Assembly: GCF_032854445.1 (NCBI RefSeq)
Contig: NC_088295.1
Span: 59,561,249 to 59,625,248, forward strand
Direction: 5' to 3'
Length of the DNA: 64,000 nt
Source: Liolophura sinensis
Taxonomy: Eukaryota > Mollusca > Polyplacophora > Chitonida > Chitonidae
Shown: piece by piece, positions 1-45,895 of the stretch
How positions within the stretch are numbered: position 1 is the first letter of the stretch
Layout: every line of letters begins with the position of its first letter
Translations under genes and position numbers: made by a program
The notes under the pieces: model-generated
What the model was told of the DNA's origin: nothing
Seen by the model: only the letters and a program-made list of their open reading frames with translations
The model's database searches: none

Positions 1-90
1 GAAGCTGTCGATACAAGTATATAAACTGTATTTTACAGACTATATGAAATTAGAGCGTTCAAGTGACAATTATTAATGTTCCAATTACAG

Positions 91-119
91 CAGTAACAGT
101 CCAAGAACCGCCGGAACGG
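91..119 (+). CDS. Gene 1 exon, type B (AVTVQEPPER)
   Basis: A 29-nt exon (2 + 27) between acceptor ccaattacag and donor gtaagaattg. With the G carried from an A exon it reads AVTVQEPPER. Two later copies (3738, 5312) read ALTIQEPPER. Confidence 0.6.
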
Positions 120-9400: not shown

Positions 9401-9636
9401 GTGAGTATTACGTAATAGTAGCATTCTTGCGCGACGGTCCTGTGTAAAATATTTTGCTATTATAAAGATTTTATTTCGTTATATACTGCAAAGACATAAG
9501 CCTAAGGTAAACAGAAAACGAACTCGTTAAATGGAAAATCCACCTTAGATTTCTTACATCCTCCAGTTTTATAACGTGTTTTATTACACGTACAATTAAC
9601 CACTTATACGTAACTGTATCACTGAAACTGAGCTGT

Positions 9637-9642
9637 AATAAA
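9637..9642 (+). other. Possible polyadenylation signal (AATAAA)
   Basis: Lies about 240 bp after the A-type exon that begins with TGA. It could end gene 1, but single AATAAA motifs are common in AT-rich DNA. Confidence 0.2.
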
Positions 9643-9659
9643 GTCGCACTGAGGAAGTA

Positions 9660-21848: not shown

Positions 21849-21855
21849 TATAAAT
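21849..21855 (+). promoter_or_regulatory. TATA box of gene 2
   Basis: TATAAAT lies exactly 30 bp before the A of a TCAGTC initiator (A at 21879). This fits a core promoter for the exon ending at 21909. Confidence 0.7.
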
Positions 21856-21878
21856 GCTTTGAGTTTTATTTTTCTATC

Positions 21879-21909
21879 AGTCCATCTGTGCGGGCTTTCG
21901 AATCTAAAG
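21879..21909 (+). other. Gene 2 5' UTR exon
   Basis: Starts at the TCAGTC initiator 30 bp after the TATA box and ends at AAAG before donor gtaagc. It has no ATG. Confidence 0.6.
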
Positions 21910-24900
21910 GTAAGCAGTAATACGCTAAGCAAGTGTTATCACGTTGGCCATATTATTTACTTGGTATATTTGTTGCTTATCATTTGCTCTTCTTTTATTC
22001 CTAGGCTGAAACCAGCGATAACGTCGAGCATGAAGTTGCTTTTAGTTGCGTTCGCAATGTGTGTTGTGGCATATGCCCAACAAGAACGTAAGTTGTGACA
22101 ATGTTTTTTCACTTTACTTTTGAAATCAACTCAGTTTGCATTAAATTGATTTTAAAGTAAGTTATTATCTAATACTGAATCTGTCCGCAGGTTTAATCCC
22201 AAACCCCTACTTGAATCTACTTGTAGCTTGTGCAAACCAATCTTTAAGTAAGTAAGGCATGCATTTGGGCTGGTTTTGTACCAGACTAAACTAAAAAATG
22301 TTCCCTTTGCTTTAAAAATGAAAACTATTTCTGAGTGACAGCTGGTAAATAAAATTTTGTTTTCAATGGGAATTATTTTTTTTATTGTATATCCTTTCTA
22401 ATTTGCGCCTTTGAAAAGGAAGTGAAATGGGCAAATGTACGAACATCAGCCAACAAATCACATTACTGTGTCGTTCAATTAGTTATATTCTGTCAATAAC
22501 AGTTCGTTATTCAATCTATCACTTTCTACATACAGTACAGCAAGTCGAACGAGGATCACAGCTGGAGAGCAATGTAAGAACTATTTTCTTAATTCTGACG
22601 CTAATTAATCACATATCAACAAAAAAATCACTGATATTCATTAGAGATTCCGACTGCTAAAAAGAATGTCAATGAATATAAGGATATTGACGCATTACAC
22701 CTTTTGAAAGGCTAGTTTACTGCTAATTGCTACTGACTGGCCCTTCACTAGACTATACAAGTCGAGTGTTCGAATCCAACTCTCGCCACCACGGCTACGG
22801 GGTCTTTGTCAGGCATCTGAAGAAGAGTTGCGGTTTATTTTAGTTTCCTCCACTCCTGAATAAAGAATATTATTATGATAACAAATCAATCGAGTGACGG
22901 GATTTATTCAAGTGTATCGAGTGGTTCATGGACTTAAGTCACACGGCCATATATACATTTGAGTCTATCTTAGTCTCCCACATACTTTGTACCACGCCCA
23001 TTTTGTGGAATTAACGTTACATTTGTAATTCAAAACATCATTTGTAACGGCACCTGGTAGTCGGACTGAGGACGAAAAAATCCAGTTACCAAACTTAAAA
23101 TTACCTGTAAATTACCTAATTAAAATTAGCTTTTTTACACATGAATGTGCTAGGCGATGATCGTGAGATATTTAACACGTTGTTTGAACCTCAGCCATTG
23201 GTGCGCTTTAAAGTCAGTTTTCTCAGGTACCTATCGAAGAGCGGTGGTTTCGTCCATCCATGCACGGTTAGAATTTTTGTTTATTAAGCAATAAACTGGC
23301 CATTTATATTTTTACACTGCTCCTCTTTGCTTTGCGCAAGTGTTGGGAATGATACATAGATGTGCGGGTGTTTTTTTGGTAGAAAACCATGAATTAAATT
23401 TCTAATTCATCGGCGTTTCATAACGGAATCTGCAAAAAATCGGAACCACTCCTCTAGCTTTCACCTGATTTTCCTGAAACTCTGAGAATAGTGTTCGGTA
23501 CTGTGAGATCTGTTCGTGTTGTTTTCTTTCTTTTTGGACAGATAGAATTTGGACTTTTAAAGATGTATTATGGTCGATATGTAGCATGTGCCTTTTTGGT
23601 TGTAGCATGTGTCGAAACGCATCGTCTGATCGCAACTTATTACATTGATTTGTCCTATTTGCATTTAACTGATCAAATTGGATGAGTCGAAACAACAAAA
23701 CGCCTGGTGTGAACACTTCCTTATGAGGCGCGTTTGTCTTTCAGCTTCATCAGGTCCTGAGAGCAAAGCTGATGAGAGCTAGCCGCCATCTTGGTAAAGG
23801 TAAGAACGAGATTACGGTAATTTTTTGTCAAGAAAATAAAATATAAAAGACAATATAGCATGTAGAATAAAACCTGATCAGCGACGAACAGTGTGATAGG
23901 TTAAAACTCAGCGCAATCCGGCTGACAAAACTATGGTAAAAACTGCCCAGGTCCGATATCAACCTATTATTCAATATTTTTTCCTTGGTGAAACAAATAA
24001 TTAAAATGACATCTGTGCTTTGTTAGAATAAGAGAATACAAAAAGTAGAAACGTTTAAGGCAATCTCCAAAAAAGCAGTTGTTGCAGTATTTGTGTAATT
24101 TAAGCTTAGTTCTCAGACACGCTTGAAATGGAGATCCATCTTTCTGAACTCATGAGAGCTAATGCTTCGTCCCGATCTCGTGCACAGCGAAAAGTTTAAA
24201 TTACAAAAAAAAAAATAATTAAAAACATATGTGTATCTTGAGTTGTACGAGAAGACCGGTTCGACTACTTGCGATTGGCAGCTGTATATATTTAAAGCAT
24301 CATGAAATCTTTTGTATAGGTAGGAATTACATTGACACTTTACATCGTAATCAAACCTTTCCCAACTACAAACGACAAGAAATATTTTCATTTATAATTA
24401 AAATGTGATGCATGATTTCGGGGCAAAAAGTCTGTAGTTTTCTCATACAAGCAAACCATCTAAGTACATGTAGCCAACATATCATTCATCATATACTATA
24501 GTAATAATGTTACCCAGAAGCCTCTCATCAATACGGTCGCATTGAGTTCAAGTCCAGCTCATGCTGGCTTCCTCTTCTCGGCCCTAAGTGGGAAGGTCTC
24601 TCAGCAACCCGCGGATGATCGATGATTCGTGGGCTCTGTCCGGTTTCCTCCCTGTCCCCTACTGCTGGCCGCCGTCGTATAAGTGATGTATTCTTGAGTG
24701 CGGCGTGAAACACCAATGAGATAAACAAATAGTAATACTCATAGCGGACCTTCAATCCACCCAGGTAATGTCCCTCTATCGGCAAATTGTCACACGCATA
24801 GCCGGATAGATCCGGCCTCTTCTCAGTTTACCTCAGTTAGGGTGTTATTATAACTGTTCATGTGAGTGGTTAAGAAATATCAACTTAAACATCGCCTAAC

Positions 24901-27900
24901 AACATGGCTGAAGCGGAATTGGGTGAAAAAAAAAGTGCAGTGATGTAAATGTAACTTATTAGGTGTAGAAAGAATATCGTCGTCAAGGGCAACATCATCA
25001 TGTTGAATGCCGAGAACAATATGGCTGTATTAAGTTTGTTTGGGGTTGCCCATAAGGACTCCATCAAAATAGGATATAAGACTCCTTAGTAAAATCAGTC
25101 AACAACTTAATGTGGATTTTTTTTTTTACAGTTCCAGAGCAACATAATAAGGTAAATCTACAGTTTCGTTAAGCTAAACCGGAAACGTAAAATGAAGTTG
25201 AATAATATTAAATTTTTCAGACTATTTTACATTTAAAGTACTGTTTTGTTATTGATGGTGGAATACTTATTTATTTCATTGTTGTTTAACGCCATTCTCA
25301 AGAATTCCTCACGTATAGAATGATTTTCAGTATTATGAGCCGTGGCGAGTTAATGACGAACTACCCCAAATTTATGATGCTGGCATATATAATATCATGT
25401 TATGCAAAAGGGGATAATCCTTTTCATGACAAAATTCAAACGTTTAATGAGACTAGCATTTGACACTCAGTCGGCTTCATGCAGACTGCTGCCCCCCCCC
25501 CCCCACCCCCGACCACCCCACCAGGCCAATATACGGTTCCTACACCTATGAGGTGTGCTGTTCCCAAAACGTGCAAACTAATGCCCAGTAACATCCAAAA
25601 CTGTTGAAGACATGCGCGCGATTGCTAGTTTATCAATGTTAGTTAAATGTACGTAAGCCTTTTTCATTCTTTCTTTACTCGGTTGCAGGGTCCGCTTAGC
25701 CAGGATGGTGAGTATGACGCGCATTCTCACGTAAAAAGTCATTGTGTTATACATTGTTAAATGGATAAAGAATTGACGCTGGTTGGCTTACAGAAGTGAT
25801 ATGTCTTTCTGGGGTAAACCATGCAGCATTGGTCGCGCTTGAATAAATCTTCCATACCTAAGATTCAGCTTAGGTCAGGTATAATCTGGACATACCCATC
25901 TCTGGCATCAGTCAATCAGATTCCATTCTGTATCACTTTGAGGTTCAAAAGTAGGGCAAAAATACATCTGCTTCATGAGAATTTGAGAGTTAATGATATA
26001 TTAGATAGGCTTTATTAATTACTAATTATTAATGTAAGGTGAGAAACCGTACAGTATATCAATGTATGGTTTATGTAAAAAGTCAGACGATGCAAAATCC
26101 GCGCATATTTTATCAAATTTTAGCTGAAATTTAGGCTAAGAATCAGGATTACCTGTTACGGCCAGTCTATTTTCTCCACCTACCATCTTAATCTTTTCGG
26201 TTGATGCCAGGGTTATACTCTTGACCTTATGATGTGTTTCTTCCGGGCATGCCTCGGAGGCATTGATATGTCTTTTTCTGCCTTTTGGCAACATTGAATA
26301 ATTTTAAAAAGTCCGTTAATATTTGAAAAAATAGATGTTCACAGAAAAAGAATTAGAAGGCGTAGGGACGTAATATTCTGTTGGATAAAAAGTTATAATG
26401 AAAAAATAACACTCCTGTAGTCGCTAGCGCAACATAACATTCGTTGAAGACCACTTTTCTTCCACCAACATGGTAAACATATCCCTCCCACCATATTTTT
26501 CCACAGATGAAACGGAATGTTATCGTATAAGTAAAAAAAGTATACCATTAACAATAATCAATAACATAAATGTAACCAGCTGATACGCATACACACACGC
26601 ACACAGTGAAAGGGGCTGTGAGTATATACACTAACTTTTCTTAGGCGTTGAGTCTATGGCGGGCTTTTTAGGTTAGCATTTGCACACAGCACACTAATAA
26701 TACGTCTTATTTAGTTCTATGGAAGGAAAGTTCTTTGCCAGTCCTATACTTCTAGTGAGTAGACAAGTGTTCTTACGTAAATGAGTGAGTGAGTGAGTGA
26801 GTGCTTGGGTTTAAGGTGAGTGCTTAGGGCTGTCGTACTCGACAATTTTGTTATATGACGACGAAGGAATCCTTGGAGAGTATGTAATGTGTCTCCTTGT
26901 TGCAGGACGGATTTCCACCGCTCTTTTACCTAGTGCTGCTTCACTGAGACGACTTACCGAAGTCAAGTAAGACGCCCTGCCCGAGCTATTATACTGATAC
27001 GGATCAACCAGTCGTTGCACTATCTCCTTCATGCCTAACGCGAATGAATTAAAGGCGTTAAAACAATACTAATTCGGCTTACACTTCATTTTTCTTGCAC
27101 AGATGCTGTACCATTGTTCATGACACCCCCCAGGAGAGAAAGGCCAATCTCGGTAAAAAATTATTTTAGTATCACTCGGCGTAAGAAACCGATTCACCTG
27201 TAAATTACAACGTATTTCACTTTATATACGACAGCGGCCAGCATTATGGTGGGAGGAAACCGGGCAGAGCCCGGGGATAACCCACGACCATCCGCAGGTA
27301 ACTGCCAGACTTTTCCACATACGGTCGGAGAGGAAGCCAGCATGAGCTGGACTTGAACTCACAGCGACCGCATTGGTAGGAGGCTTCTGGGTCATTACGC
27401 TGTACTAGCACGCTAACCAACTGTGCCATAGAAGCCCCCACAGCTCTCATTAAACATAAAGAAATGCACATGGTCTCCTGTAAAGTACTAATTAAGAGAT
27501 GGTTGAAATGCTGCAAATATACTACTTTTAGATTTTACAAGGTGTATATATTATTGGATTATCTCAAAGAATAGTGAGAGAACGTGTTCAAAAACAAATA
27601 CGTATAAACGTCGAAATTTGTTGAGCAGTAACAACTGCTTTAGTGTATCGACTTACTTGAGCCGGATGTAAAGTAATGGTATATGACACAAAAGAGTTCA
27701 GGGTTCAATACCGGCTTGTGCCAGGGAATTTGTATATTGCCCCGCTCTCATTGTGTGCGTTAACTTTGTGAACTTATAGGCTCCTGAGCCCGTTTGCAGT
27801 CTTTCTTCATTGCAGATCACATGCCCTTCAGCAGCATACGGCGTGGAATTTTGTATCATTGTGACGAGTTAAGTGAGAAAGTTCGTCACTACTGTTTCAG

Positions 27901-30900
27901 TGGTCTGTGGTTCCCCCTGGTTTCCTCAAGCTATAAAACTGACAGCCTCCGGATCAAAGTATTCGATGCATGCTCAATGAAAGTATTGAGCATGGCGTTA
28001 AATAACGATGAAATGAATATTTTACATGAATAATTTAGGGTTTTGTTTTATTGATTTCAGGGTCCTCTAAGCCAGGATGGTAAGTAAGGTTCATGTTTAG
28101 AAAGAAGAAAAGTAAACTATGAAAGTCTTTGCCATACACACCTGTAACAAACTGAGTACATAAATGGCATGTGTTTTGTTATTAGAGTAATGAGAACACA
28201 CATACTTCATACAGTCATAGTCTATTTTGACCTTTCCATTTAGTGTAAGATAAGCGAAAACAACATATAGAGTAAAATGAAAGCAGAGGCAGTCTTTTGT
28301 GAGTGAGTGAGTGCTTGGGGTTTAACGTCGTACTCAACAATTTTTCAGTCATATGACGACGAAGGAATCATTAGGGTGCATGTACGTGAAAGTCTTTGAA
28401 CGTGAATGTACGTGGTGCATGTACGTGAAATGTGCCTCCTTGTTGCAGGACGGATTTCCACCTCTCTTTTATTTAGTGCTGCATCACTGAGACGACTTAC
28501 CGAAGGCAAGTAAGCCGCCTCGCCCGAGCCATTATACTGATACGGGTCAACCAGTCGTTGCACTATCCACTTCATGCCGAACGCCAAGAGAGGAAGTTAC
28601 AACTTCCTCTTTTAAAGTCTTAGGTGTGACTCGATCAAGGATTGATCCTGGATCTACCGGTCCCGAAGCGGACGCTCTACCAACTGTGCTATCCGGGCCA
28701 GTTCAGTCTTTTGTCATGTAACCTTTAAAAGTACAGCATACAAATACTACCTCTGGATTTGTTGCTCAAAGGAAAGTTCTAAACGATTCCTGTTTCTCGT
28801 GTAATGAATTTTTCAAACATGTAATGGTTAAATGCGGTAATACAATATGAATTCGTCACACTCTCTTGTTTTCTGTAGATGCAGCACCTATGTTCATTGT
28901 GCCCCCAAGAAGAGACAGGCCAATTTCGGTAAAAAAAATTTAATTTTGAGCGTCAAATCCAACATGTTTATACCACTCGTAGATCGTGAAGGGATGCTCC
29001 AAGTCGTTAATCGCAAAACTCATTTCCAAAACCACTTCCTAAATATCATTTGCTAAAGGAATATGTAAGAAATCTTATATAAGTAGCAGATAATGCTGGT
29101 AACATGTAAGAGAAAGAAGCCATTCTCTGCATGACAGCCATTTCACATTTTAGTCGGACACAAGTTTAGATGTGTCAGTCGAGCTTTGAATGCCAGAGTT
29201 CATAAAAGCAGCATTATTGAACATGATGTTAAGACACCCCCTAGTCCCGGGTTAAGCAGAATTAGATACCATTATGGCATACATCACCACAGACCCTGAA
29301 CGCTCTGTCTATATTTTGCCTAAAGACTGTTAAATATATGATGTGAACAAGTGAGAAATTCGTCACTACCTTCCAATGGTTTGTGGTTCACCCTAGTTTC
29401 CTTGACCCATAAAACTGACAACCGTCGTAGAAGTATTGAGCATGGTGTCAAATAACTAATTAATCCTGTGACGGCGCTTGTGTGTCCGTTTGCGAAGTCA
29501 TTGTAATTCACTTATCGCCCATTATGTGTGCGTAATAAATGGCGAACATTCGTCTGTATTTAGTCGGCGGTTTCCTCCCCACCAATCGTATAAATGAAAC
29601 GTCTTAAGTGTGGTATTAAATATTTTGTATAAAGAGAAGTAATTTTGTGCTTTGTTTTATTGGTTTTAGGGTCCTCTAAGCCAGGATGGTGAGTATGACT
29701 AAATCGGGGCATTGTTGCATGAAGGTTCTATGTCAAATATGCTCCTTTTCATAAAGTTGTGTTGTGTGTAAATTGTTAAGGTATAGCTCTAAGCAACTGC
29801 AATCATAAACACATCCGTTATTCGAGGACATGATTTAACCAATAATTATTCTTGAAGAGAGACAGTGAGAAACCATAGAGTAATGTATGTATAAATTTGG
29901 TTTGGTTCCTCAAGGGAAAGTTCTAAACGAATCCTGCTTCAAACGTGTAATGGTTAAATGCGGTAATACAATATGAATTCGTCATACACTCTTGTTTTCT
30001 GTAGATGCAGCACCTATGTTCATTGTGCCCCCAAGAAGAGACAGGCCAATTTCGGTAAAAAAAAATTAATTTTGAGCGTCAAATCCAACATGTTTATAAC
30101 ACTCGTAGATCGTGAAGGGATATTCCAAGTCGTCATTCGCAAAACTCATTTCCAAAACCACTTCCTAAACATCATTTGCTAAAGGAATATGTAAGAAATC
30201 TTATATAAGTAGCAGATAATGCTGGTAACATGTAAGAGAAAGAAGTCATTCTCTGCATGACAGCCAGTTCACATTTTAGACTCGTCCGTGGATAATGTCG
30301 GACACAAGTTTAGATATCTCAGTCGAGCTTTGAATGCCAAAGTTCATAAAAGCAGCATGTTGATGTAATAAACATGATGTTAAGACACCCCCTAATCCCG
30401 GGTTAAGCAGAATTAGATACCATTATGGCATACATCACCACAGACCCTGAACGCTCTGTCTATATTTTGCCCAAAGACTGTTAAATGTATGAGGTGAACA
30501 GGTGAGAAATTCGTCACTACCTTCCAATGGTTTGTGGTTCACCCTAGTTTCCTTGACCCATAAAACTGACAACCGTCGTAGAAGTATTGAGCATGGTGTC
30601 AAATAACTAATTAATCCTGTGACGGCGCTTGTGTGTCCGTTTGCGAAGTCATTGTAATGCACTTATCGCCCACCATGTGTGCGTAATAAATGGCGAACAT
30701 TCGTCTGTATTTAGTCGGCCGTTTCCTCTCCACCAATCGTATAAATGAAACGTCTTAAGTGTGGTATTAAATATTTTGTATAAAGAAAAGTAATTGTGTG
30801 CTTTGTTTTATTGGTTTTAGGGTCCTCTAGGCCAGGATGGTGAGTATAACTAAATCGGGGCATTGTTGCATGAACGTGCTATGTCAAATATGCTCCTTTT

Positions 30901-33900: not shown

Positions 33901-36900
33901 AGAAATTCGTCACTACCTTCCAATGGTTTGTGGTTCACCCTAGTTTCCTTGACCCATAAAACTAACAACTGCCGTAGAAGTATTGAGCATGGTGTCAAAT
34001 AACTAATTAATCCTGTGACGGCGCTTGTGTGTCCGTTTGCGAAGTCATTGTAGAGCACTTATCGCCCACCATGTGTGCGTAATAAATGGCGAACGTTCGT
34101 CTGTATTTAGTCGGCCGTTTCCTCCCCACCAATCGTATAAATGAAACGTCTTAAGTGTGGTATTAAATATTTTGTATAAAGAGAAGTAATTTTGTGCTTT
34201 GTTTTATTGGTTTTAGGGTCCTCTAAGCCAGGATGGTGAGTATGACTACATCGGGGCATTGTTGCATGAAGGTTCTATGTCAAATATGCTCCTTTTCATA
34301 AAGTTGTGTTGTGTGTAAATTGTTAAGGTATAGCTCTAAGCAACTGCAATCATAAACACATCCGTTATTCGAGGACATGATTTAACCAATAATTATTCTT
34401 GAAGAGAGACAGTGAGAAACCGTAGAGTAATGTATGTATAAATTTGGTTTGGTTCCTCAAGGGAAAGTTCTAAACGAATCCTGCTTCAAACGTGTAATGG
34501 TTAAATGCGGTAATACAATATTAATTCGTCATACACTCTTGTTTTCTGTAGATGCAGCACCTATGTTCATTGTGCCCCCAAGAAGAGACAGGCCAATTTC
34601 GGTAAAAAAAAATTAATTTTGAGCGTCAAATCCAACATGTTTATACCACTCGTAGATCGTGAAGGGATATTCCAAGTCGTCATTCGCAAAACTCATTTCC
34701 AAAACCACTTCCTAAACAACATTTGCTAAAGGAATATGTAAGAAATCTTATATAAGTAGTAGATAATGCTGGTAACATGTAAGAGAAAGAAGTCATTCTC
34801 TACATGACAGCCAGTTCACATTTTAGTCGGACACAAGTTTAGATATCTCAGTCGAGCTTTGAATGCCAAAGTTTATTGAACATAATGTTAAGACATACCC
34901 TAACCCCGGGTTAAGCAGAATTAGATACCATTATGGCATACATCACCACAGATCCTGAACGCTCTGTCTATATTTTGCCTAAAGAATGTTAAATATATGA
35001 TGTGAACAAGTGAGAAATTCGTCACCACCTTCCAATGGTTTGTGGTTCACCCTAGTTTCCTTGACCCATAAAACTGACAACCGTCGTAGAAGTATTGAGC
35101 ATGGTGTCAAATAACTAATTAATCCTGTGACGGCGCTTGTGTGTCCGTTTGCGAAGTCATTGTAGAGCACTTATCGCCCACCATGTGTGCGTAATAAAGG
35201 GCGAACGTTCGTCTGTATTTAGTCGGCGGTTTCCTCTCCACCAATCGTATAAATGAAACGTCTTAAGTGTGGTATTAAATATTTTGTATAAAGAAAAGTA
35301 ATTGTGTGCTTTGTTTTATTGGTTTTAGGGTCCTCTAAGCCAGGATGGTGAGTATGACTAAATCGGGGCATTGTTGCATGAAGGTTCTATGTCAGATATG
35401 TTCCTTTTCATAACGTTGTGTTGTGTGTAAATTGTTAAGGTATAGCTCTAAGCAACTGCAATCATAAACACATCTGTTATTCGAGGACATGATTTAACCA
35501 ATAATTATTCTTGAAGAGAGACAGTGAGAAACCATAGAGTAATGTATGTATAAATTTGGTTTGGTTCCTCAAGGGAAAGTTCTAAACGAATCCTGCTTCA
35601 AACGTGTAATGGTTAAATGCGGTAATACAATATGAATTCGTCACACTCTCTTGTTTTCTGTAGATGCAGCACCTATGTTCATTGTGCCCCCAAGAAGAGA
35701 CAGGCCAATTTCGGTAAAAAAAATTAATTTTGAGCGTCAAATCCAACATGTTTATACCACTCGTAGATCGTGAAGGGATGCTCCAAGTCGTCAATCGCAA
35801 AACTCATTTCCAAAACCACTTCCTAAACAACATTTGCTAAAGGAATATGTAAGAAATCTTATATAAGTAGCAGATAATGCTGGTAACATGTAAGAGAAAG
35901 AAGTCATTCTCTGCATGACAGCCAGTTCACATTTTAGTCGGACACAAGTTTAGATATGTCAGTCGAGCTTTGAATGCCAAAGTTCATAAAAGCAGCATTA
36001 TTGAACATGATGTTAAAACACCCCCTAGTCCCGGGTTAAGCAGAATTAGATAAGAAGTCATTCTCTGCATGACAGCCAGTTCACATTTTAGACTCGTCCG
36101 TGGATAAAGTCGGACACAAGTTTAGATATCTCAGTCGAGCTTTGAATGCCAAAGTTCATAAAAGCAGCATGTTGATGTAATAAACATGATGTTAAGACAC
36201 CCCCTAACCCCGGGTTAAGCAGAATTAGATACCAGTATGGCACACATCACCACAGACCCTGAACGCTCTGTCTATATTTTGCCCAAAGACTGTTAAATGT
36301 ATGAGGTGAACAAGTGAGAAATTCGTCATTACCTTCCAATGGTTTGTGGTTCACCTTAGTTTTCTTGACCCATAAAACTGACAACCGTCGTATAAGTATT
36401 GAGCATGGTGTCAAATAACTAATTAATCCTGTGACGGCGCTTGTGTGTCCGTTTGCGAAGTCATTGTAATGCACTTATCGCCCACCATGTGTGCGTAATA
36501 AAGGGCGAACATTCGTCTGTACTTAGTCGGCGGTTTCCTCTCCACCAATCGTATAAATGAAACGTCTTAATTGTGGTATTAAATATTTTGTATAAAGAAA
36601 AGTAATTGCGTGCTTTGTTTTATTGGTTTTAGGGTCCTCTAAGCCAGGATGGTGAGTATGACTACATCGGGGCATTGTTGCATGAAGGTTCTATGTCAAA
36701 TATGCTCCTTTTCATAAAGTTGTGTTGTGTGTAAATTGTTAAGGTATAGCTCTAAGCAACTGCAATCATAAACACATCCGTTATTCGAGGACATGATTTA
36801 ACCAATAATTATTCTTGAAGAGAGACAGTGAGAAACCGTAGAGTAATGTATGTATAAATTTGGTTTGGTTCCTCAAGGGAAAGTTCTAAACGAATCCTGC

Positions 36901-39900
36901 TTCAAACGTGTAATGGTTAAATGCGGTAATACAATATTAATTCGTCATACACTCTTGTTTTCTGTAGATGCAGCACCTATGTTCATGGTGCCCCCAAGAA
37001 GAGACAGGCCAATTTCGGTAAAAAAAATTTAATTTTGAGCGTCAAAGCCAACATGTTTATACCACTCGTAGATCGTGAAGGGATATTCCAAGTCGTCATT
37101 CGCAAAACTCATTTCCACAACCACTTCCTAAACAACATTTGCTAAAGGAATATGTAAGAAATCTTATATAAGTAGCAGATAATGCTGGTAACATGTAAGA
37201 GAAAGAAGTCATTCTCTGCATGACAGCCAGTTCACATTTTAGTCGGACACAAGTTTAGATATGTCAGTCGAGCTTTGAATGCCAAAGTTCATAAAAGCAG
37301 CATTATTGAACATGATGTTAAGACACCCCCTAGTCCCGGGTTAAGCAGAATTAGATTAGAAGTCATTCTCTTCATGACAGCCAGTTCACATTTTAGACTC
37401 GTCCGTGGATAATGTCGGACACAAGTTTAGATATCTCAGTCGAGCTTTGAATGCCAAAGTTCATAAAAGCAGCATGTTGATGTAATAAACATGATGTTAA
37501 GACACCCCTTAGCCCCGGGTTAAGCAGAATTAGATACCAGTATGGCATACATCACCACAGATCCTGAACGCTCTGTCTATATTTTGCCTAAAGACTGTTA
37601 AATGTATGAGGTGAACAAGTGAGAAATTCGTCATTACCTTCCAATGGTTTGTGGTTCACCCTAGTTTCCTTGACCCATAAAACTGACAACCGTCGTATAA
37701 GTATTGAGCATGGTGTCAAATAACTAATTAATCCTGTGACGGCGCTTGTGTGTCCGTTTGCGAAGTCATTGTAGAGCACTTATCGCCCACCATGTGTGCG
37801 TAATAAAGGGCGAACGTTCGTCTGTACTTAGTCGGCGGTTTCCTCTCCACCAATCGTATAAATGAAACGTCTTAAGTGTGGTATTAAATATTTTGTATAA
37901 AGAAAAGTAATTGTGTGCTTTGTTTTATTGGTTTTAGGGTCCTCTAAGCCAGGATGGTGAGTATGACTACATCGGGGCATTGTTGCATGAAGGTTCTATG
38001 TCAGATATGCTCCTTTTCATAAAGTTGTGTTGTGTGTAAATTGTTAAGGTATAGCTCTAAGCAACTGCAATCATAAACACATCTGTTATTCGAGGACATG
38101 ATTTAACCAATAATTATTCTTGAAGAGAGACAGTGAGAAACCGTAGAGTAATGTATGTATAAATTTGGTTTGGTTCCTCAAGGGAAAGTTCTAAACGAAT
38201 CCTGCTTCAAACGTGTAATGGTTAAATGCGGTAATACAATATTAATTCGTCATACACTCTTGTTTTCTGTAGATGCAGCACCTATGTTCATGGTGCCCCC
38301 AAGAAGAGACAGGCCAATTTCGGTAAAAAAAATTTAATTTTGAGCGTCAAAGCCAACATGTTTATACCACTCGTAGATCGTGAAGGGATATTCCAAGTCG
38401 TCATTCGCAAAACTCATTTCCACAACCACTTCCTAAACAACATTTCCTAAAGGAGTATGTAAGAAATCTTATATAAATAGCAGATAATGCTGGTAACATG
38501 TAAGAGAAAGAAGTCATTCTCTGCATGACAGCCAGTTCACATTTTAGTTGGACACAAGTTTAGATATGTCAGTCGAGCTTTGAATGCCAGAGTTCATAAA
38601 AGCAGCATTATTGAACATGATGTTAAAACACCCCCTAGTCCCGGGTTAAGCAGAATTAGATTATAAGTCATTCTCTTCATGACAGCCAGTTCACATTTTA
38701 GACTCGTCCGTGGATAATGTCGGACACAAGTTTAGATATCTCAGTCGAGCTTTGAATGCCAAAGTTCATAAAAGCAGCATGTTGATGTAATAAACATGAT
38801 GTTAAGACACCCCTTAGCCCCGGGTTAAGCAGAATTAGATACCAGTATGGCATACATCACCACAGACCCTGAACGCTCTGTCTATATTTTGCCTAAAGAC
38901 TGTTAAATGTATGAGGTGAACAGGTGAGAAATTCGTCACTACCTTCCAATGGTTTGTGGTTCACCCTAGTTTCCTTGACCAATAAAACTGACAACCGTCG
39001 TATAAGTATTGAGCATGGTGTCAAATAACTCATTAATCCTGTGACGGCGCTTGTGTGTCCGTTTGCGAAGTCATTGTAGAGCACTTATCGCCCACCATGT
39101 GTGCGTAATAAAGGGCGAACGTTCGTCTGTACTTAGTCGGCGGTTTCCTCTCCACCAATCGTATAAATGAAACGTCTTAAGTGTGGTATTAAATATTTTG
39201 TATAAAGAAAAGTAATTGTGTGCTTTGTTTTATTGGTTTTAGGGTCCTCTAAGCCAGGATGGTGAGTATGACTAAATCGGGGCATTGTTGCATGAAGGTT
39301 CTATGTCAGATATGCTCCTTTTCATAACGTTGTGTTGTGTGTAAATTGTTAAGGTATAGCTCTAAGCAACTGCAATCATAAACACATCCGTTATTCGAGG
39401 ACATGATTTAACCAATAATTATTCTTGAAGAGAGACAGTGAGAAACCGTAGCGTAATGTATGTATACCTTAGTTATTAACTGCTATTTAGAAAAACGACG
39501 CACCAAATTTGAACCCTGAGCTCAGCGCACAGGGGTGGTTACATGGTTGAAATTAAGAAACTCGTATTGTAAACAAATTTGTCACATACAGGTTCGCCCG
39601 CAACAATCTACTTTTGCCCTCGCTGCTTCTGTTGACCAATAGTCGTGTGGCTGATACGGTGATCCAGACTCCGAGCAGAAGAGCTCACGCAAACTTCCAG
39701 AACAATACAGTATGGTGATAATGCATTCATCATGCCTTTCGCAAAATCACCAGAAATACTCTAAATTTCCTGGAAGGTTGACACGCGCCCGTTACTCTTT
39801 GGAGTACGGGTTCAACTTTACGTCAATCACATATGTAATTAGGTCAGCATTGTTCCCCGCCTCACGCTCGAACGGTAACAGCACCAATGGAAAAAAAACA

Positions 39901-42900
39901 ATACAGTCCCTAAAAAATTGCCTTTGTGTTCAAGCGATAACGAGCAATCTGACAGGTAAACAATGGGTAATACACTTCCGAAGTGCCGTAGACGAATAAG
40001 AGAAAAATGCTTGTCAAACACCTACCTCCCCCTACATGTAGATTAATAATTACGCAAATGAACTAACGACCGTATGTAGAATATTAAAACAAAAACTGTG
40101 GTTACTGCAGATTGCTGTTAATTTTTAAATTTACAGTGGAGCTCAATGCGTGAAGAGATAGATTTTGGAAATATATTTCAATGACAAACTAGCGAAAACT
40201 TTACGCTTAATTAAGTTTACGTGGAAGGATATTATTCAACCTTGGGACTGTGTAAAAATTTCTACCTGAATTCGCACGAACCTGTGCTTCTAAAATTTAA
40301 TATGCATGACCTCTGTGCGGCTCTGGGTTAATTTTGTAAGTGGTGGCTCAAATTTCATCAGAGCTGGACTCCACTTCTTTTACATTTTTCACATTAACCA
40401 GTGAGTACAACAGCACAGGAATAATGCGTCTTTTTTAGTTCTATGAAAGGAAAACTCTTTGCGATTCCTATACCTCCAGTGTGTAGAAAAGTGTTCTTAC
40501 CTGAATGAATTAGAGGCGTTAAAACAATGTTAATTCGGCTTACACTTCATTTTTCTTGCACAGATGCTGTACCATTGTTCATGACACCCCCCAGGAGAGA
40601 AAGGCCAATCTCGGTAAAAAATTATTTTAGTATCATTCGGCGTAATATACCGGTTCACGTGTAAATTACAACGCATCGATAACGTTTCGATAAACTGGTC
40701 AGTGGCATATTTGTATAGTTAAGTTGCGGTCACGTGTTATGCAACGTTTCGCACGTATTAATGTACCGCAGTTTATGCGTGGAATAAATACATTAGGGTG
40801 TGTAAAATTTTGTAATCAGTGTATTTATACGGCACTTCCGATTGAAGTAAAGAAATGAACACGGTCTCCTGTAACAATTAAAAGATTTTACGATGATTGA
40901 AATTTCACAAGATTTTTTCACAAGGTGTATAATAGTTTGACCATCCCAAAGGATAAAATGCAATTCGTATACCTATAAAAGTCATAATTTTTCGAGGCGT
41001 CTTGGTTGCTTTAATTCATCGACTTATTTTACATGTACATGGACCGGGACGTACTGTAACGGTGTGTATGCCAATCCCACCGCGATGCACACTGGATGAG
41101 GGTTCAATCCCGACATCTGCCAGGCAGTTTTTAGATTGCTCAACGCTCATTGTTTGCGTTACTTTGGTGATTATACCTGCTCGTGATGCCGTTTCCTAAA
41201 TCTCACTTTCATGAAGAACATAAGTTCCAGCAATATGGCGTGGAAATTTGTATTTGACAAGCGAGGAAGTTCGTCGCTACCTTCCAAAAGACCTGTGGTT
41301 TACCCCGGTTTCCTGTGCCCATGAAACTGACACCTGTCGTATAAATGAAAGTACTAAGCATGGTGCTAAATGCCTATAAAATAAACATAGTACATCTTCA
41401 ACTGTGTGTTTCGTTTTATTGATTTTAGGGTCCCCTAAGCCAAAATGGTAAGTATGGTTTCAAGTTCAGAAATTATACACTATTCTGTGGAAATCTTTTT
41501 CGTGTACGCCTCAAATAAATGTTATGCGTTTTGGTATAAGAGTCATGAGACCACAAATATTTGACAAGCATGCAGTCTATTGTGAGCTTTCCATTCAGTT
41601 TAAGATAAACGACTACAGCATATATATAAAGTAAAGTCAAAGCATCGACCACTTCTTGTCATTTAATCTTTGTCGACATATCATATAAATAATACTGTTT
41701 GGTTGCATTCAGGAAAGCTCTTTGTAATTCCTGGTTCGATGCAGAAGTTTTCACACGTGTAATAATTGAAGGCATTAATTCGGCATACACTTCTTTTTTT
41801 GTCTACAGATGCTGCGCCTTTGTCTATGGTGCCCCCAAGAAGAGAACAGCCAATCTCGGTAAAGTATTATTCATTCTTTATAGCATTGATAGGAAAACAG
41901 GAGTTGCGTTGACAGTGTGATAAATGGATCAGGCCGTAACCGGTGAAATACCTTCTCTTTTGTCATTTTACCTCCAGTTATGGTTTTATTCTGATTGTTC
42001 TTGTCAATCGTTATATTCGCTGCCAAATGCGAGGAGCTTAGAGTGAATGACGGTCGGTCGTGTATCCTTGACACACCACTTTTTGATCTGGTACCTTGTG
42101 AGGCAGATCGAAATGATCATATTTTACACATGATCTTACTTTCATTGAAGACCTCTTTTCATCCACCAAATACTTTGTGAAAATCTGTATGTGACGTGTG
42201 AGAAAGTGAAGCGCATTGCCACAAAAGCCGTTGGTTTCTTATCCCGGTTACCCTCGTGCACCAACGTAAAATTGATCGCCGTCAGTGTAGGTTTAAACTA
42301 ACTACTGTATTTTACATTAATATACGCGACTGTGCACATTTTGTTTTATTGATTTCAGGGTCCCTTAAGCAAGGATTGTGAGTATGACATAATCGGTGCA
42401 TTGTTGCATGAAGGTCCTGCATGCAGAAAACATGTTCCTGTTCAGAAAATAGTGCCCTTCCTTTTTAAACTCGGCCCAAAACACATTTGTTACAGGAGGG
42501 CCTAATATTTGACCACAAATTGGACATGCTTTATTATTTACTGGTGGTAGGCCAATTGTGGAATCTAATGACATCTTTTTCACATGTGCAAGAATAAATT
42601 CACTGTTATCTTCACTTGGTGCGCCTAATCACTTGTGACGCCTTCAAGAAACACACTCTTAAATAGTATTGATTTGTTTTAGACTTGAGAGTTTAAATAT
42701 AAGCACGGGGTCTTTGTGGCTCAGTTGGTTAGCGCGCTAGCGCAACGTAATGACCCAGGAGCCTCTCACCAATGCGGTTCAAGTCCAGCTAATTCTGGCT
42801 TCCTCTCCGGCTGTACGTGGGAAAGTCTGTCTGCAACCTGCGGATGGTCGTGGGTTTCCCCCGGGCTGTGCCCGGTTTCCTCCCACCATAGTGCTGGACC

Positions 42901-44217
42901 ACGTCGTATAAGTGAAATATTCTTGAGTGTGGCGTAAAACACCAGTCAAATAAATAAAAAAATATATAAGCTGTACAAATATAAGCTGTACAATAATTTG
43001 TATATTATTTATCTTTGATTATTATTTATCTTTGTGTATTATTTATCTGTACTGTTATAATGTGGAGGAGAGAGCCGTTCTTCCTCATTGGTTTTCAAGC
43101 ATAAATCACGAATTCACATGCTTATCATCTGTGTTTTTCACAATGGACATGGGCCAGGATAAGTTGTCCACATGCGAAGCATACGTATGGTGAATCTTTC
43201 CCACCTAAGTCTCGCGCAGTCTGTTGTTCAGTTCCGCCTTTGCGATGACGAATGTGGGCTAACTGGTGACGTTGTACTCACATAACGCAAGAGAAGGATA
43301 GTCAATTCGGCTAGCCACAACAGGTTTGCAGTGTTAGAAACTCTCAACTTGGCCTTAATGCACCCATTTAATAAATGTATATATTTGACATATTTGCTTT
43401 TCCTTTTCAGACGCTGTTCCAGTAGGCTTCCGTCGTCCTTCGATTCTAAAAGCAGACGATGTGAGTGATTGTCAGATTCGTTACATTGGACTGGGACGAT
43501 GGGATGTCTAGCCATCGCGTTGAATTAGATTGCCCCGTAGAATATATGAACAGATGCAATCAAAAAGCTCATTTGAGATACATAGTTTGATTATCGATAA
43601 CTTATTTACTAGCATGGTATATGATTTGCATGCTGATATAATTCAATCGCCCAGAACATTCCTAATTTCATTATTTCTTTATAAATTTCTTTATATGCTT
43701 TCTTAGTTCTTTGGAGGTTTGTGTTGGGTGTTATTTAGAAAACTAGTCGTTTCTAACCTAGATTATTGACCTGGAACGTCCATTCTGGTTGATTGTGGTT
43801 AATACGATGTGTCAATGATTTAAATATGGACAGACATTTTGTGACTTATAGTAAATTTTGCTTTATTTGAACAGTTGGATAAAGTATACTCGTCAGTCCT
43901 ATAATAACCACAAAATGGCTTTCCTAAACTAGTGCCGATCTCTAAATATCTCAAAAAATGAATGCGTTATGCTTAATAACCCTATAGCTGTATTTACATA
44001 ATACGTATTCTGTGGAAATTTTCAGAATAAATGTGAAAATTAAATTAATTTGAATTGATCTAATTTAATTTGAGAAAAATTAATAGAAAACTGCAAATAA
44101 ATTGGAACGAAAAAGAAGGGCTCAGGATTCAATATATCGATTTATTTTAGTTGTGCTGTCGGAATGACTGTTTCTTTTTTTTGTTAACAGCTTAACGCTC
44201 AAGCTGTTCACTACTAA
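21879..44217 (+). CDS. Gene 2: secreted micro-exon repeat protein (13 A/B exon pairs)
   Basis: Not recognised as a named family. Exons: 5' UTR 21879-21909; 22005-22087 (ATG at 22030); 22191-22247; 22553-off-by-five alternative avoided by phase, giving 22538-22575 region; 23227-23266; 25132-25151; thirteen A+B pairs from 25689 to 43460; terminal exon 44191-44237 with TAA at 44215. Phases join throughout. Coding exons of 58, 57, 38, 40, 20, 13 x 69 and 27 nt total 1137 nt, or 378 residues, if the 49-nt exon at 33427 is counted as 50. The protein starts with signal peptide MKLLLVAFAMCVVAYA, then about 55 unique residues, then a 23-residue repeat (GPLSQD plus DAAPMFIVPPRRDRPIS), then LNAQAVHY. 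The repeat is rich in Pro and Arg and has no Cys. Twelve of the thirteen B exons carry PPRR, a possible dibasic cleavage site. A disordered matrix protein is an equal alternative. Confidence 0.75.
22005..22087 (+). CDS. Gene 2 signal-peptide exon
   Basis: Acceptor ttttattcctag, donor gtaagttg. ATG at 22030 opens MKLLLVAFAMCVVAYA followed by QQE and a final C (phase 1). A short basic start, a hydrophobic core and an AYA end fit signal peptidase cleavage after residue 16. Confidence 0.8.
22191..22247 (+). CDS. Gene 2 exon 3 (unique region)
   Basis: A 57-nt exon, phase 1 to 1, between ctgtccgcag and gtaagtaagg. It completes an Arg, then reads LIPNPYLNLLVACANQSL. A second GTAAGG donor four bases later would break the frame. 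Confidence 0.6.
22538..22575 (+). CDS. Gene 2 exon 4 (unique region)
   Basis: A 38-nt exon (2 + 36) between ctttctacatacag and gtaagaac, reading IQQVERGSQLESN. A second AG five bases later gives a 33-nt exon that would not fit the neighbouring phases, so the upstream AG was chosen. Confidence 0.55.
22700..22870 (+). mobile_element. Possible tRNA-derived SINE relic
   Basis: A B-box-like GTGTTCGAATCCAAC is followed by the SINE-like phrase ggtttattttagtttcctcc. The element is worn and its ends are unclear. Confidence 0.35.
23227..23266 (+). CDS. Gene 2 exon 5 (A-like)
   Basis: A 40-nt exon (39 + 1) between gttttctcag and the weak donor gttaga, reading VPIEERWFRPSMH. Its first 18 bases resemble the gene 1 exon for EPMEDR, which supports common origin. 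Confidence 0.55.
24510..24731 (+). mobile_element. SINE (family 1), 5'-truncated
   Basis: GAGTTCAAGTCCAGCTCATG box, GGCCGCCGTCGTATAAGTGA-like body and an A-rich end. It lies in the intron before gene 2 exon 6. Confidence 0.75.
25132..25151 (+). CDS. Gene 2 exon 6 (B-like, 20 nt)
   Basis: A 20-nt exon (2 + 18) after a long T tract and TTTACAG, before donor gtaaatc. With the carried G it reads VPEQHNK and enters the first GPLSQD exon in phase 0. Confidence 0.6.
25493..25511. repeat. Poly-C tract in gene 2 intron
   Basis: About fourteen consecutive C followed by ACCCCCGACCACCCC. Such tracts are prone to sequence error. Confidence 0.8.
25689..27152 (+). CDS. Gene 2 repeat pair 1
   Basis: Exon A 25689-25707 (GPLSQD) and exon B 27103-27152 (DAVPLFMTPPRRERPIS). 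Splice sites are cggttgcag/gtgagtatgac and tttcttgcacag/gtaaaaaatt. Exon B is identical to that of pair 11. Confidence 0.75.
26785..27042 (-). mobile_element. SINE (family 2), truncated, with CACT-repeat tail
   Basis: Flanked by AATGA duplications (26780-26784 and 27043-27047). The homologous intron near 40.5 kb lacks it and has a single AATGA, which is a natural empty site. The body matches 28301-28588. Confidence 0.75.
27232..27437 (-). mobile_element. SINE (family 1)
   Basis: On the minus strand: an A-box region near 27410-27430, the B box near 27350, then the body. The AAATA tail is absent. Lies in a gene 2 intron. Confidence 0.7.
27650..28030 (+). repeat. Intron segment with tRNA-like B box, shared with 41.03-41.39 kb
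   Basis: GGGTTCAATACCGG, a CTCATTGTGTGCGTTA-like stretch and GAAAGTATTGAGCATGG recur, with changes, at 41030-41390 before pair 12. It is either an old SINE or part of the duplicated B-to-A intron. Confidence 0.4.
28061..28928 (+). CDS. Gene 2 repeat pair 2
   Basis: Exon A 28061-28079 (GPLSQD, donor gtaagtaagg) and exon B 28879-28928 (DAAPMFIVPPRRDRPIS). The intron between them carries a full-length SINE (28301-28703). Confidence 0.8.
28301..28703 (-). mobile_element. Full-length tRNA-derived SINE (family 2)
   Basis: A 403-bp element flanked by perfect 11-bp duplications CAGTCTTTTGT (28290-28300, 28704-28714). On the minus strand the head reads TAGCACAGTTGGTAGAGCG (A box) with a degraded B box GGATCAATCC, then a body with TATCAGTATAATGGC and a tail of CACT repeats. 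Confidence 0.85.
29670..30054 (+). CDS. Gene 2 repeat pair 3
   Basis: Exon A 29670-29688 (GPLSQD) and exon B 30005-30054 (FIV variant), separated by 316 bp. Confidence 0.8.
30821..31205 (+). CDS. Gene 2 repeat pair 4
   Basis: Exon A 30821-30839 (GPLGQD, Ser to Gly) and exon B 31156-31205 (FIV variant). Confidence 0.8.
31933..32317 (+). CDS. Gene 2 repeat pair 5
   Basis: Exon A 31933-31951 (GPLGQD) and exon B 32268-32317 (FMV variant). Confidence 0.8.
33091..33475 (+). CDS. Gene 2 repeat pair 6, with a one-base deletion
   Basis: Exon A 33091-33109 (GPLSQD) is normal. Exon B 33427-33475 is 49 nt because a run of five C is four here, which breaks the reading frame after FIVP. It is a real mutation or a homopolymer sequence error; skipping the pair would keep the frame. 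Confidence 0.65.
34217..34601 (+). CDS. Gene 2 repeat pair 7
   Basis: Exon A 34217-34235 (GPLSQD) and exon B 34552-34601 (FIV variant). Confidence 0.8.
35329..35713 (+). CDS. Gene 2 repeat pair 8
   Basis: Exon A 35329-35347 (GPLSQD) and exon B 35664-35713 (FIV variant). The longer genomic units start with this pair. Confidence 0.8.
36633..37017 (+). CDS. Gene 2 repeat pair 9
   Basis: Exon A 36633-36651 (GPLSQD) and exon B 36968-37017 (FMV variant). Confidence 0.8.
37938..38322 (+). CDS. Gene 2 repeat pair 10
   Basis: Exon A 37938-37956 (GPLSQD) and exon B 38273-38322 (FMV variant), almost a copy of pair 9 including the introns. Confidence 0.8.
39243..40613 (+). CDS. Gene 2 repeat pair 11
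   Basis: Exon A 39243-39261 (GPLSQD) is the last of the tandem units. Its partner exon B lies beyond the array at 40564-40613 (DAVPLFMTPPRRERPIS), identical to that of pair 1. Confidence 0.75.
39462..40430. other. Unique sequence after the gene 2 array
   Basis: Replaces the expected rest of a tandem unit after the A exon at 39243. No exon, RNA gene or repeat was recognised. Confidence 0.5.
41429..41858 (+). CDS. Gene 2 repeat pair 12
   Basis: Exon A 41429-41447 (GPLSQN, donor gtaagtatgg) and exon B 41809-41858 (DAAPLSMVPPRREQPIS). More diverged than the array units. Confidence 0.75.
42359..43460 (+). CDS. Gene 2 repeat pair 13 (degenerate last repeat)
   Basis: Exon A 42359-42377 (GPLSKD, ending in T) and exon B 43411-43460 (YAVPVGFRRPSILKADD). 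It keeps the 19 + 50 nt lengths and phases but has lost PPRR. A family 1 SINE lies in its intron. Confidence 0.7.
42707..42962 (+). mobile_element. SINE (family 1), near full length
   Basis: Head TGGCTCAGTTGGTTAGCGCG (A box), a B box shortened to GGTTCAAGTCC, the body and an AAATA tail. Lies in the intron of pair 13. Confidence 0.85.
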
Positions 44218-44237
44218 GACAACTGGGGAGACCAGAG
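44191..44237 (+). CDS. Gene 2 terminal coding exon
   Basis: Acceptor ttttgttaacag, donor gtaagatt. In phase 0 it reads LNAQAVHY then TAA (44215-44217). The last 20 bases are 3' UTR, so the stop lies 20 nt before the last splice junction, close enough to escape nonsense-mediated decay. Confidence 0.65.
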
Positions 44238-44294
44238 GTAAGATTACTTAAGTCATTCATTTGTGTCATCTTATAATAAGAGTAGTGTAATCGA

Positions 44295-44378
44295 TATGCG
44301 GTTTCCTCCACCCATAAAAATGACCGCCACATGGGAAACATTCTTGAGTATGACGGTAAACAACAGTCGAGAAAATAA
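44295..44378 (+). mobile_element. SINE-like 3' fragment
   Basis: Contains gcggtttcctccacccata and gaaacattcttgagtatgac, the diverged end of a family 1-like SINE. Confidence 0.45.
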
Positions 44379-44448
44379 AGATGGTATGGGATGATCTGAA
44401 CTTTCCACATACAATACGTTCCGTCATATGGCATATATCAGGACGGTA

Positions 44449-45505
44449 CATACTCACCCATACCATACACGTGTACAAGTTACTCATGCAGCCCTACCAT
44501 ACACATATACAAGTTACTCATCCCTACACGTATACAAGTTACTCATGCAGCCCTACCATGCACGTATACAAGTTACTCATGCACCCCTACCATACACATA
44601 TACAAGTTTCTCACCCCTACCATGCACGTATACAAGTTACTCATGCAGCCCTACCCTGCAAATATACAAGTTATTCATGCAGCCCAACCATGCACGTATA
44701 CAAGTTACTCATGCAACCCTACCATGCACGTATACAAGTTACTCATCCCTATCATAGACGTATATAAGTTACTCTCCCCTACCATGCACGTATAAAAGTT
44801 ACTCATGCAGCCCTACCCTGCACATATACAAGTTACCCATGCAGCCCTACTATAGACGTATACAAGTTACTCTCTCCTACCATGTACATATACAAGTTAC
44901 TCACCCCTACCAAGGACGCATGTGCAGGGTAGGGCTGCATGAGTAACTTGTATACGTGCATGGTAGGGGTGAATAACTTGTATACGTACATGGTAGGGTT
45001 GCATGAGTAACTTGTATACCTCAATGGTACGGCTGCACGAGTTACTCGCCGCGATCAAGCACGCATACAAGTTACTCATGCATACCTACCATAGACGTGT
45101 ACAAGTTACTCACACCTACCATCCACGTATACAAGTTACTCACCGCGATCATGCACGCATGCAAGTTACTCATGCATACCTAACATGCACATATACAAGT
45201 TATTCATGCATACTACCGTGCACGTATGCAAGTTACTCACCCCTACCAGGCGCGCATACAAGTTATTCATGCAGCCCTACCATAAACATGTACAAGTTAT
45301 TCATACATACTACCATACACGTATACAAGTTACTCACCCCTAACATGCAAGAATACAAGCTACTCATGCATACCTACCATAGACGTGTACAAGTTACTCA
45401 CCGCGATCATACACGGATACAAGCTACTCGTGCATCCCTAACATGCACCACTACCATTACGTATATAACTTACTCACTCCAACCAAGTACACATACAACT
45501 TACCC
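44449..45505. repeat. Minisatellite with an internal orientation switch
   Basis: About thirty copies of a variable unit of about 20-36 bp built around TATACAAGTTACTCATGCAG with CCCTACCATGCACG spacers. The block at about 44931-45038 has the reverse complement, so the array flips orientation twice. It lies in the 3' UTR intron of gene 2. Long open frames through it are by-products of the repeat. Confidence 0.9.
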
Positions 45506-45569
45506 TATCAAGAACATATTACCCCTATACCATTCACCGTCCTAATGGCTTAATATATTTCCTTTTCAG

Positions 45570-45895
45570 AGTCTCTACTTCCGGGGAGTGCACTACCGAA
45601 CAATGAAAGGGCACTGACGTTCCTCTCCTCTCCTCTCCTCTCCTCTCCTCTCCGATATAACATATCGACATTAAAACCATGCTGTTATCTAGACTACCTT
45701 GCATTCAAATGTCTGATGTATTTATATGTTGTTTACAAAAGTATGTAACGCACTTTCCCCTTCCATCCAGGTCTTCATGCTCTCTTCGTGTATTCCTCGA
45801 ATCCTTTTTTTTGTGAAATTCGCTTTAATTACAAACTGTTGAAACTTAGAATTCTTGTAACCGGTAACAAATAAATCTCCATTGGCTTGCCTTTA
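45570..45895 (+). other. Gene 2 3' UTR last exon with polyadenylation signal
   Basis: Acceptor tttccttttcag at 45569. AATAAA lies at 45870-45875, so cleavage is expected near 45890. A TCTCC microsatellite lies within it. Confidence 0.5.
45621..45653. repeat. TCTCC pentanucleotide microsatellite
   Basis: About six and a half copies of CTCCT within the predicted last exon of gene 2. Confidence 0.85.

Follow-up and report, generated by a model that had tools for sequence, protein, structure and literature searches.

Tandem genes predicted to encode secreted proline-rich repeat proteins from phase-complementary micro-exon pairs in the chiton Liolophura sinensis

Structure of gene 1

The window analysed here is a stretch of 64,000 nucleotides from the genome of the chiton Liolophura sinensis (assembly GCF_032854445.1, contig NC_088295.1, hereafter C1; C1:59561249-59625248), and the genome searched comprised 609,464,459 bases in 632 contigs. 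The assembly was first published under the name Liolophura japonica, which was later corrected to L. sinensis (PMC12441733); a preliminary description, made from the DNA letters, had suggested mollusc and brachiopod genomes as the place to search for relatives. Window positions 21849-45895 contain a predicted gene, hereafter called gene 1, in which two kinds of very short exon, A and B, alternate, and a relative, hereafter called the sister gene, lies approximately 32 kb upstream. Gene 1 is very probably a real, spliced gene with a secreted product, and the phase-paired exon architecture given below is highly probable.

The array of gene 1 consists of 13 A exons of 19 nt each, running from phase 0 to 1 (25689..42377, + strand, with starts at 25689, 28061, 29670, 30821, 31933, 33091, 34217, 35329, 36633, 37938, 39243, 41429 and 42359), and 13 B exons running from phase 1 to 0 (27103..43460, + strand, with starts at 27103, 28879, 30005, 31156, 32268, 33427, 34552, 35664, 36968, 38273, 40564, 41809 and 43411), 12 of 50 nt and one (33427) of 49 nt. 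The exons alternate strictly and all lie on the + strand, as the preliminary description had stated and a pattern scan confirmed; the scan recovered 12 of the B exons, namely that of 49 nt and 11 of those of 50 nt, whereas the thirteenth (43411) was too diverged for it and was located separately. Consensus splice sites had been described for every exon. This was correct for the A exons, all 13 of which are bordered by an AG acceptor and a GTRAGT donor, but not for the B donors: AG and GT border B exons in 13 of 13 cases, and the donors are mostly below consensus strength, since they read GTAAAA in 11 exons and GTAAAG in one, with GTGAGT in one. The introns within the array measure 316-1395 nt. 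None of the 26 array exons has a length divisible by three (A exons are 1 mod 3 and B exons 2 mod 3), so that only the A + B pair, 69 nt, keeps the frame. Nine near-identical DNA units, spaced 1112-1305 nt apart, each contain one A and one B exon.

For comparison, a set of 82 kb, consisting of the complete window on its reverse strand plus window positions 46-64 kb, was scanned for exon-like stretches 12-69 nt long, bounded by a pyrimidine-rich acceptor and a GTRAG donor. This set gave 20 candidates, one of them of 19 nt. With equal filters the gene 1 array gave 13 candidates of 19 nt in 17.9 kb and the sister-gene array six in 15.8 kb, five of which are among its eight A exons; these counts are a description rather than a probability, because the copies are related by duplication and are not independent.

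The elements reported to frame the array are all present on the + strand. The core promoter (21849..21882) has TATAAA at 21849 and an initiator, TCAGTC, at about 21877, both read directly. It is followed by exon 1 (21880..21909, start approximate), which is 5' untranslated region (UTR) with the donor gtaagc at 21910, and by exon 2 (22005..22087), which contains the ATG at 22030 and codes for a putative signal peptide, MKLLLVAFAMCVVAYA/QQE, with the cleavage site placed by eye. Three leader exons precede the array: one of 38 nt, phase 1 to 0 (22536..22573), one of 49 nt, phase 0 to 1 (23745..23793), encoding LHQVLRAKLMRASRHL, and one of 20 nt, phase 1 to 0 (25132..25151), encoding VPEQHNK. After the array come the stop exon (44191..44237), encoding LNAQAVHY with TAA at 44215, and a 3' UTR exon (45570..45895, end approximate) with AATAAA at 45870. 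The last intron also contains a minisatellite (44461-45448) whose units measure about 30-34 nt and are in part inverted (44922-45046).

A sister gene upstream

The sister gene was found through a match to the promoter and exon 1 of gene 1, with 82 % identity between window positions 21780-21912 and C1:59550690-59550822. A 35-nt promoter pattern, GGGTATAAA...CTATCAG, had two matches in the 609-Mb genome with up to three mismatches allowed, one in each gene. The sister gene lies on the + strand from C1:59550756 to approximately window position 10,385, and its 3' half occupies window positions 1..10385; the upstream locus is covered by two DNA pieces, L001 and L002. Its 5' parts, including TATAAA and an initiator, a signal exon, leader exons and the phase pattern, are similar to those of gene 1. 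The signal exon encodes MKLLLVAFASCVIAAHAEQD (L002 258-318), a leader exon of 38 nt (L002 1437-1474) resembles the 38-nt exon of gene 1, a leader exon of 55 nt (L002 2840-2894, FNRILRAKLMRARRRSNS, which contains LRAKLMRA) resembles the 49-nt exon, and an exon of 23 nt (L002 3700-3722) is in the place equivalent to that of the 20-nt exon. At the other end, 46 nt at the gene 1 poly(A) signal are 78 % identical (E 2.9e-4) to window positions 10324-10369, the poly(A) region of the sister gene, with AATAAA at about 10359.

Eight A/B pairs were recognised in the sister gene, with A lengths of 19, 19, 19, 19, 20, 22, 19 and 19 nt and B lengths of 23, 29, 29, 29, 41, 29, 29 and 41 nt. Again, A exons are 1 mod 3 and B exons 2 mod 3, with the exception of the 20-nt A5. 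Within the window, on the + strand, the exons are B4 (91-119, 29 nt), A5 (1147-1166, 20 nt, shifting the frame), B5 (2056-2096, 41 nt), A6 (2939-2960, 22 nt), B6 (3738-3766, 29 nt), A7 (4803-4821, 19 nt), B7 (5312-5340, 29 nt), A8 (6359-6377, 19 nt) and B8 (7225-7265, 41 nt). A last A-like exon (9373-9400, +) starts with TGA, a stop codon when entered in phase 0, which is the phase that a B exon would leave before it. The sister repeats, e.g. EPMEERALTIQEPPER, are unlike those of gene 1. By reading, and without a statistic, the B parts of both genes have a VP..F..PP theme (DAVPLFMTPPRR vs DLFVPELFPPPKL).

The sister gene bears on the model of gene 1 in several ways. Its presence supports the signal and leader exons of gene 1. 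The preliminary description had given a coding sum of 1137 nt, which was reproduced by including an in-frame 57-nt exon (22191..22247, +) and starting the exon at 23.7 kb 9 nt late. Comparison with the sister gene spoke against both choices: its acceptor aligns with 23745, the acceptor in both genes lying, by reading, 12 nt before a common CTGAGAGCAAAGCT, and the 57-nt candidate has no match in the sister-gene intron. The 23745 acceptor was therefore preferred, and the 57-nt candidate, probably no exon, was omitted. The resulting coding model has 1089 nt with the short exon taken as 50 nt, and 1088 nt with its assembled length. What stays constant between the two genes, a predicted tandem family, is the phase-complementary pair, phase 0/1 plus phase 1/0, and not the exact lengths of 19 and 50 nt. 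The proposal that gene 1 is a secreted micro-exon repeat gene and member of a family is supported by the sister gene, which, with the two-gene family that it implies, is new beyond the preliminary description.

Reading frame and sequence constraint

The commonest A/B pair translates as GPLSQDDAAPMFIVPPRRDRPIS, 23 residues. Across adjacent unit pairs of gene 1, excluding the two that contain the 49-nt exon, the assigned frame was open in 10 of 10 and in each of these 10 both other frames contained stops. Unit types 1, 2 and 12 differ from each other by a synonymous divergence (dS) of 0.54-1.03 and a non-synonymous divergence (dN) of 0.13-0.14, giving dN/dS of 0.14-0.25, and 27 of 43 differences, summed over the three comparisons, which are not independent, are at third positions. 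The gene thus looks to be under selection as far as these codon patterns indicate.

Identity among exons A1/2/12/13 and B1/2/12 was 0.74-0.89. At 20-80 nt into the introns it was 0.18-0.35, with exceptions of 0.52 and 0.67 for A2/A12, in an ungapped comparison that underrates introns with insertions or deletions. The 20 nt nearest to the exons gave 0.45-1.00 upstream and 0.40-0.65 downstream. From these flank identities the exons are distinct from the deeper introns and not always from the acceptor tract. Among the recent copies, units 2-10, mean divergence is 3.3 % in the B-to-A introns, 1.7 % in the A-to-B introns (units 3-10) and 1.3 % in the exons.

Family size and similarity searches

Whole-genome pattern searches found two genes of this family and no third. 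A degenerate B pattern had 12 genome matches, all within gene 1, and a degenerate A pattern had 14, of which 13 lie in gene 1; the remaining match, on C2, is a chance one and not A-like. Genome-wide, a leader pattern gave two matches and a signal pattern two forward matches, the control of the latter giving one. Distant members could be missed by these searches: even the sister gene escaped the A and B patterns, and the other three (leader, signal and promoter, up to three mismatches) were derived from the two genes themselves. Comparison with blastn of the 9.3 kb preceding the sister gene and of window positions 46-64 kb found no leader or unit exon, the matches in these two flanks being seemingly dispersed repeats and a few of 19-21 nt; window positions 9.4-21.8 kb gave the sister gene's own 3' end plus repeats.

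The array unit was also considered as a possible mobile element and rejected, as the matches at other genomic loci cover only parts of the B-to-A intron of gene 1. The unit of the sister gene, which is a local tandem repeat too, was likewise rejected, with a long match solely at its own locus and short ones elsewhere. The genome match counts are incomplete because only the best candidates were scored, and most of the near-identical gene 1 copies at their own locus are not among the matches listed.

There were no matches in Pfam to pieces of gene 1 or to the first 127 residues of the sister product, in NCBIfam to the 195-residue gene 1 product, in PDB sequences to 46- and 101-residue pieces of gene 1, or in Rfam to the whole window. 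Four repeat strings had no match in the open-access papers searched. Neither micro-exon repeats nor two-exon repeats of molluscs were found in these papers, and searches for abalone peptides, chiton secreted repeats and mollusc micro-exon genes gave nothing relevant among the matches listed. Searches on the chiton radula and on mollusc neuropeptides led to the protein RTMP1 (PMC6351634) and to a paper on molluscan prohormones (PMC6425005), respectively.

Other features of the window

Between the sister gene and gene 1 lie pieces of open reading frames (ORFs) like those of long interspersed nuclear elements (15286-20505, - strand), with a match to the reverse transcriptase domain RVT_1 at 16738-17214 (E 2.6e-13); the ORF at 18468-18947 had sub-threshold matches only, one to an endonuclease domain (E 0.065) and one to the PMP middle domain of Chlamydia (E 3.1e-4). 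Introns and flanks also contain, on both strands, a dispersed repeat (2500-2740, 7640-8030, 42710-42960 and 46630-46920) that is about 250-400 bp long, ends in 'actcaagaatatt...aaacaccaat' and seems to resemble a short interspersed nuclear element.

Downstream of gene 1, four nanos-like genes or fragments are found in 12.5 kb (51440-52159, +; 53288-53959, -, in two ORFs; 58273-58959, -; 63307-63987, -). All four match Pfam zf-nanos (E 5.7e-20 to 1.1e-25), the match at the second locus being that of ORF 53291-53680, and those at 58.3 and 63.3 kb look near-identical by eye. A local cluster of chiton nanos genes may interest germline biologists.

Discussion

Among the nearest described counterparts of gene 1 are the micro-exon genes (MEGs) of schistosomes. 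As their descriptions put it, MEGs have very short exons of 6-81 nt and introns of 0.1-5 kb (PMC10526429), the exons are mostly multiples of three, with 15 nt the commonest, and are called symmetrical (PMC10526429, PMC4350168), the genes are seemingly restricted to platyhelminths (PMC4350168), and the products can be disordered (PMC10399815). Gene 1 resembles them, to the extent that these sources characterise MEGs, in its many tiny exons over long introns, its predicted secretion and its N-terminal signal peptide (PMC10526429, PMC4350168): its exons of 19 and 50 nt and introns of 316-1395 nt are within the MEG size ranges, and MKLLLVAFAMCVVAYA/QQE was judged by eye to be such a signal peptide. 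The difference from MEGs that the preliminary description had drawn is upheld, in that MEG exons are mostly symmetric individually whereas the chiton gene is symmetric only per A + B pair. As none of the 26 array exons is a multiple of three, gene 1 is not a MEG, though similarly built. Its host is a chiton and not a platyhelminth, and the comparison is one of descriptions, not of protein sequences. Gene 1 is thus best classed as a predicted secreted micro-exon repeat gene with a new exon-pair layout.

The best explanation overall, which we regard as likely, is that gene 1 belongs to a tandem gene pair and codes for a secreted, disordered, proline-rich repeat protein whose units turn over. On the sequence, a start like that of a signal peptide precedes a short leader of basic character and 13 copies of the 23-residue repeat. 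Unequal crossing-over would gain or lose DNA units of about 1.1-1.3 kb, each gain or loss would alter the length of the protein in steps of 23 residues, and selection would maintain the frame and the repeat sequence during this turnover. The pair is the smallest in-frame unit because of the two-exon phase split. Without unit 6, the mature gene 1 product contains 18 % proline and no cysteine, with a grand average of hydropathy (GRAVY) of -0.62 and an isoelectric point (pI) of 9.65. It is therefore probably a proline-rich repeat protein that is cysteine-free after the signal peptide and disordered.

There is about an even chance that this product is a structural secreted polymer rather than a source of cleaved peptides. 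It could then be an extracellular repetitive polymer, e.g. of matrix, cuticle, egg coat or mucus. Elastin and collagen genes also encode extracellular repeat proteins from repeated small exons, and they would share with gene 1 the tandem in-frame exon units, the repetitive extracellular polymer and the richness in proline; their exons are not known to have the phase-split pair of 19 + 50 nt, and gene 1 differs from them in having no Pfam or PDB sequence match. The chiton radular teeth matrix protein RTMP1 is described as likewise secreted and repetitive, as lacking known relatives and as having one region predicted to be disordered, and further as Gly/Ser-rich with Trp/Phe-rich and His-rich regions (PMC6351634); on that description it is set apart from the gene 1 protein, which is without such regions.

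Release of peptides is the alternative that survives best, and we consider it unlikely. In a multi-copy peptide precursor, a convertase would cut at Arg-Arg and free approximately 12 near-identical peptides of about 21 residues, as in neuropeptide and other multi-copy prohormones; apidaecin-type precursors are another kind of multi-copy peptide precursor. Each of the 12 unshifted gene 1 B exons does encode Arg-Arg, as PPRR in 11 and as a displaced RR in unit 13, and the signal-peptide-like start and tandem near-identical units are also as in such precursors. The sister repeats, however, have no dibasic site, either in the four pairs translated before the frame break or in A6-B6, A7-B7 and A8-B8, which were read by hand, so that dibasic sites do not flank the repeat in the paralogue as they do in gene 1; the sister leader contains RARRR. 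An amidation glycine is absent, acidic residues follow RR in 11 of the 12 units, the repeat carries no net positive charge, and the repeat strings are unmatched in the open-access papers searched. This reading is ranked second because the sister repeats, as read, lack Arg-Arg.

A further reading is a secreted protein with a role in defence, either antimicrobial or able to bind variable microbes, in which exon pairs would give diversity through turnover and pair skipping. The differing repeats of two sister genes with a similar leader, the basic leader segment RAKLMRA.R, a pair layout that would permit in-frame skipping and the mildly basic whole mature gene 1 product (charge +3.2, pI 9.65) are consistent with it. 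The mature repeats, however, are not cationic like those of proline-rich antimicrobial precursors, with a net charge per repeat of -0.2 in gene 1 and about -3 (-3.2) in the sister gene, and the unit types of gene 1 are conserved rather than diversified, which makes a role in defence improbable.

A number of observations weigh against a secreted repeat protein kept under selection. Unit 13 is diverged (dN 0.65-0.71 from the other types, with dS undefined in two of three comparisons), the 20 nt upstream of the exons are in part conserved like the exons themselves, and the ungapped comparison makes the deeper introns appear less conserved than they may be. In units 2-10 both exonic base changes (S to G and I to M) alter the residue, so that recent constraint is unsupported there, and the leaders of the two genes (55 codons in one machine alignment), with dN 0.53 and dS 1.20, indicate only moderate constraint. 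No spliced retrocopy was found genome-wide with up to three mismatches, and the matrix role is drawn from composition only. Each gene also has one unit of frame-breaking length, B6 in gene 1 (33427-33475, 49 nt) and A5 in the sister gene (1147-1166, 20 nt). As assembled, the frame of gene 1 closes after unit 6, at 195 residues, and that of the sister gene at the A5/B5 join, at 127 residues; the assembled haplotype may therefore make shortened products or be decaying.

The frame shifts could have arisen as rare alleles or as errors of assembly, the latter being built from 14x HiFi reads according to its description (PMC11068029). In our judgement, made without a calculation, assembly error alone would be expected to give fewer breaks than the two seen across about 1.7 kb of coding sequence; alleles, errors and decay are all possible. 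Decay of a gene pair with recently amplified tandem units and a frame already lost would account for one frame-breaking unit per gene and the short premature products, but it is, if anything, slightly less probable than a role in defence, given that the splice sites, promoter and poly(A) signal look intact, that constraint is visible between unit types, that the shifts have the other possible origins just named, and that the frame of gene 1 is open to the stop exon (340 codons including the stop) if the whole of pair 6 is skipped.

The tandem pair of secreted repeat-protein genes remains our preferred explanation. A broader reading, which we hold tentatively and at somewhat less than even odds, is that chitons evolved a micro-exon gene family of their own, independently of flatworms, with the frame-complementary exon pair as the unit of both evolution and splicing. 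A exons, usually of 19 nt, would run from phase 0 to 1 and B exons, 2 mod 3 in length, from phase 1 to 0; pairs would be amplified, would diverge (B exons of 23, 29, 41 and 50 nt) or would be skipped, and these changes would yield secreted proteins of variable length and content.

If gene 1 is spliced as drawn, many tiny exons must be joined in series without error, which would be demanding on the definition of 19-nt exons. A transcript that lost one exon would be thrown out of frame and one that lost a pair would not, which makes splicing of the pair as a module testable. Automatic annotation is described as having struggled with the MEGs of schistosomes (PMC10526429), suggesting that similar genes may be unannotated in mollusc genomes. 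The sister genes, whose leaders are similar and whose repeats differ, would also illustrate the remaking of a secreted repeat protein.

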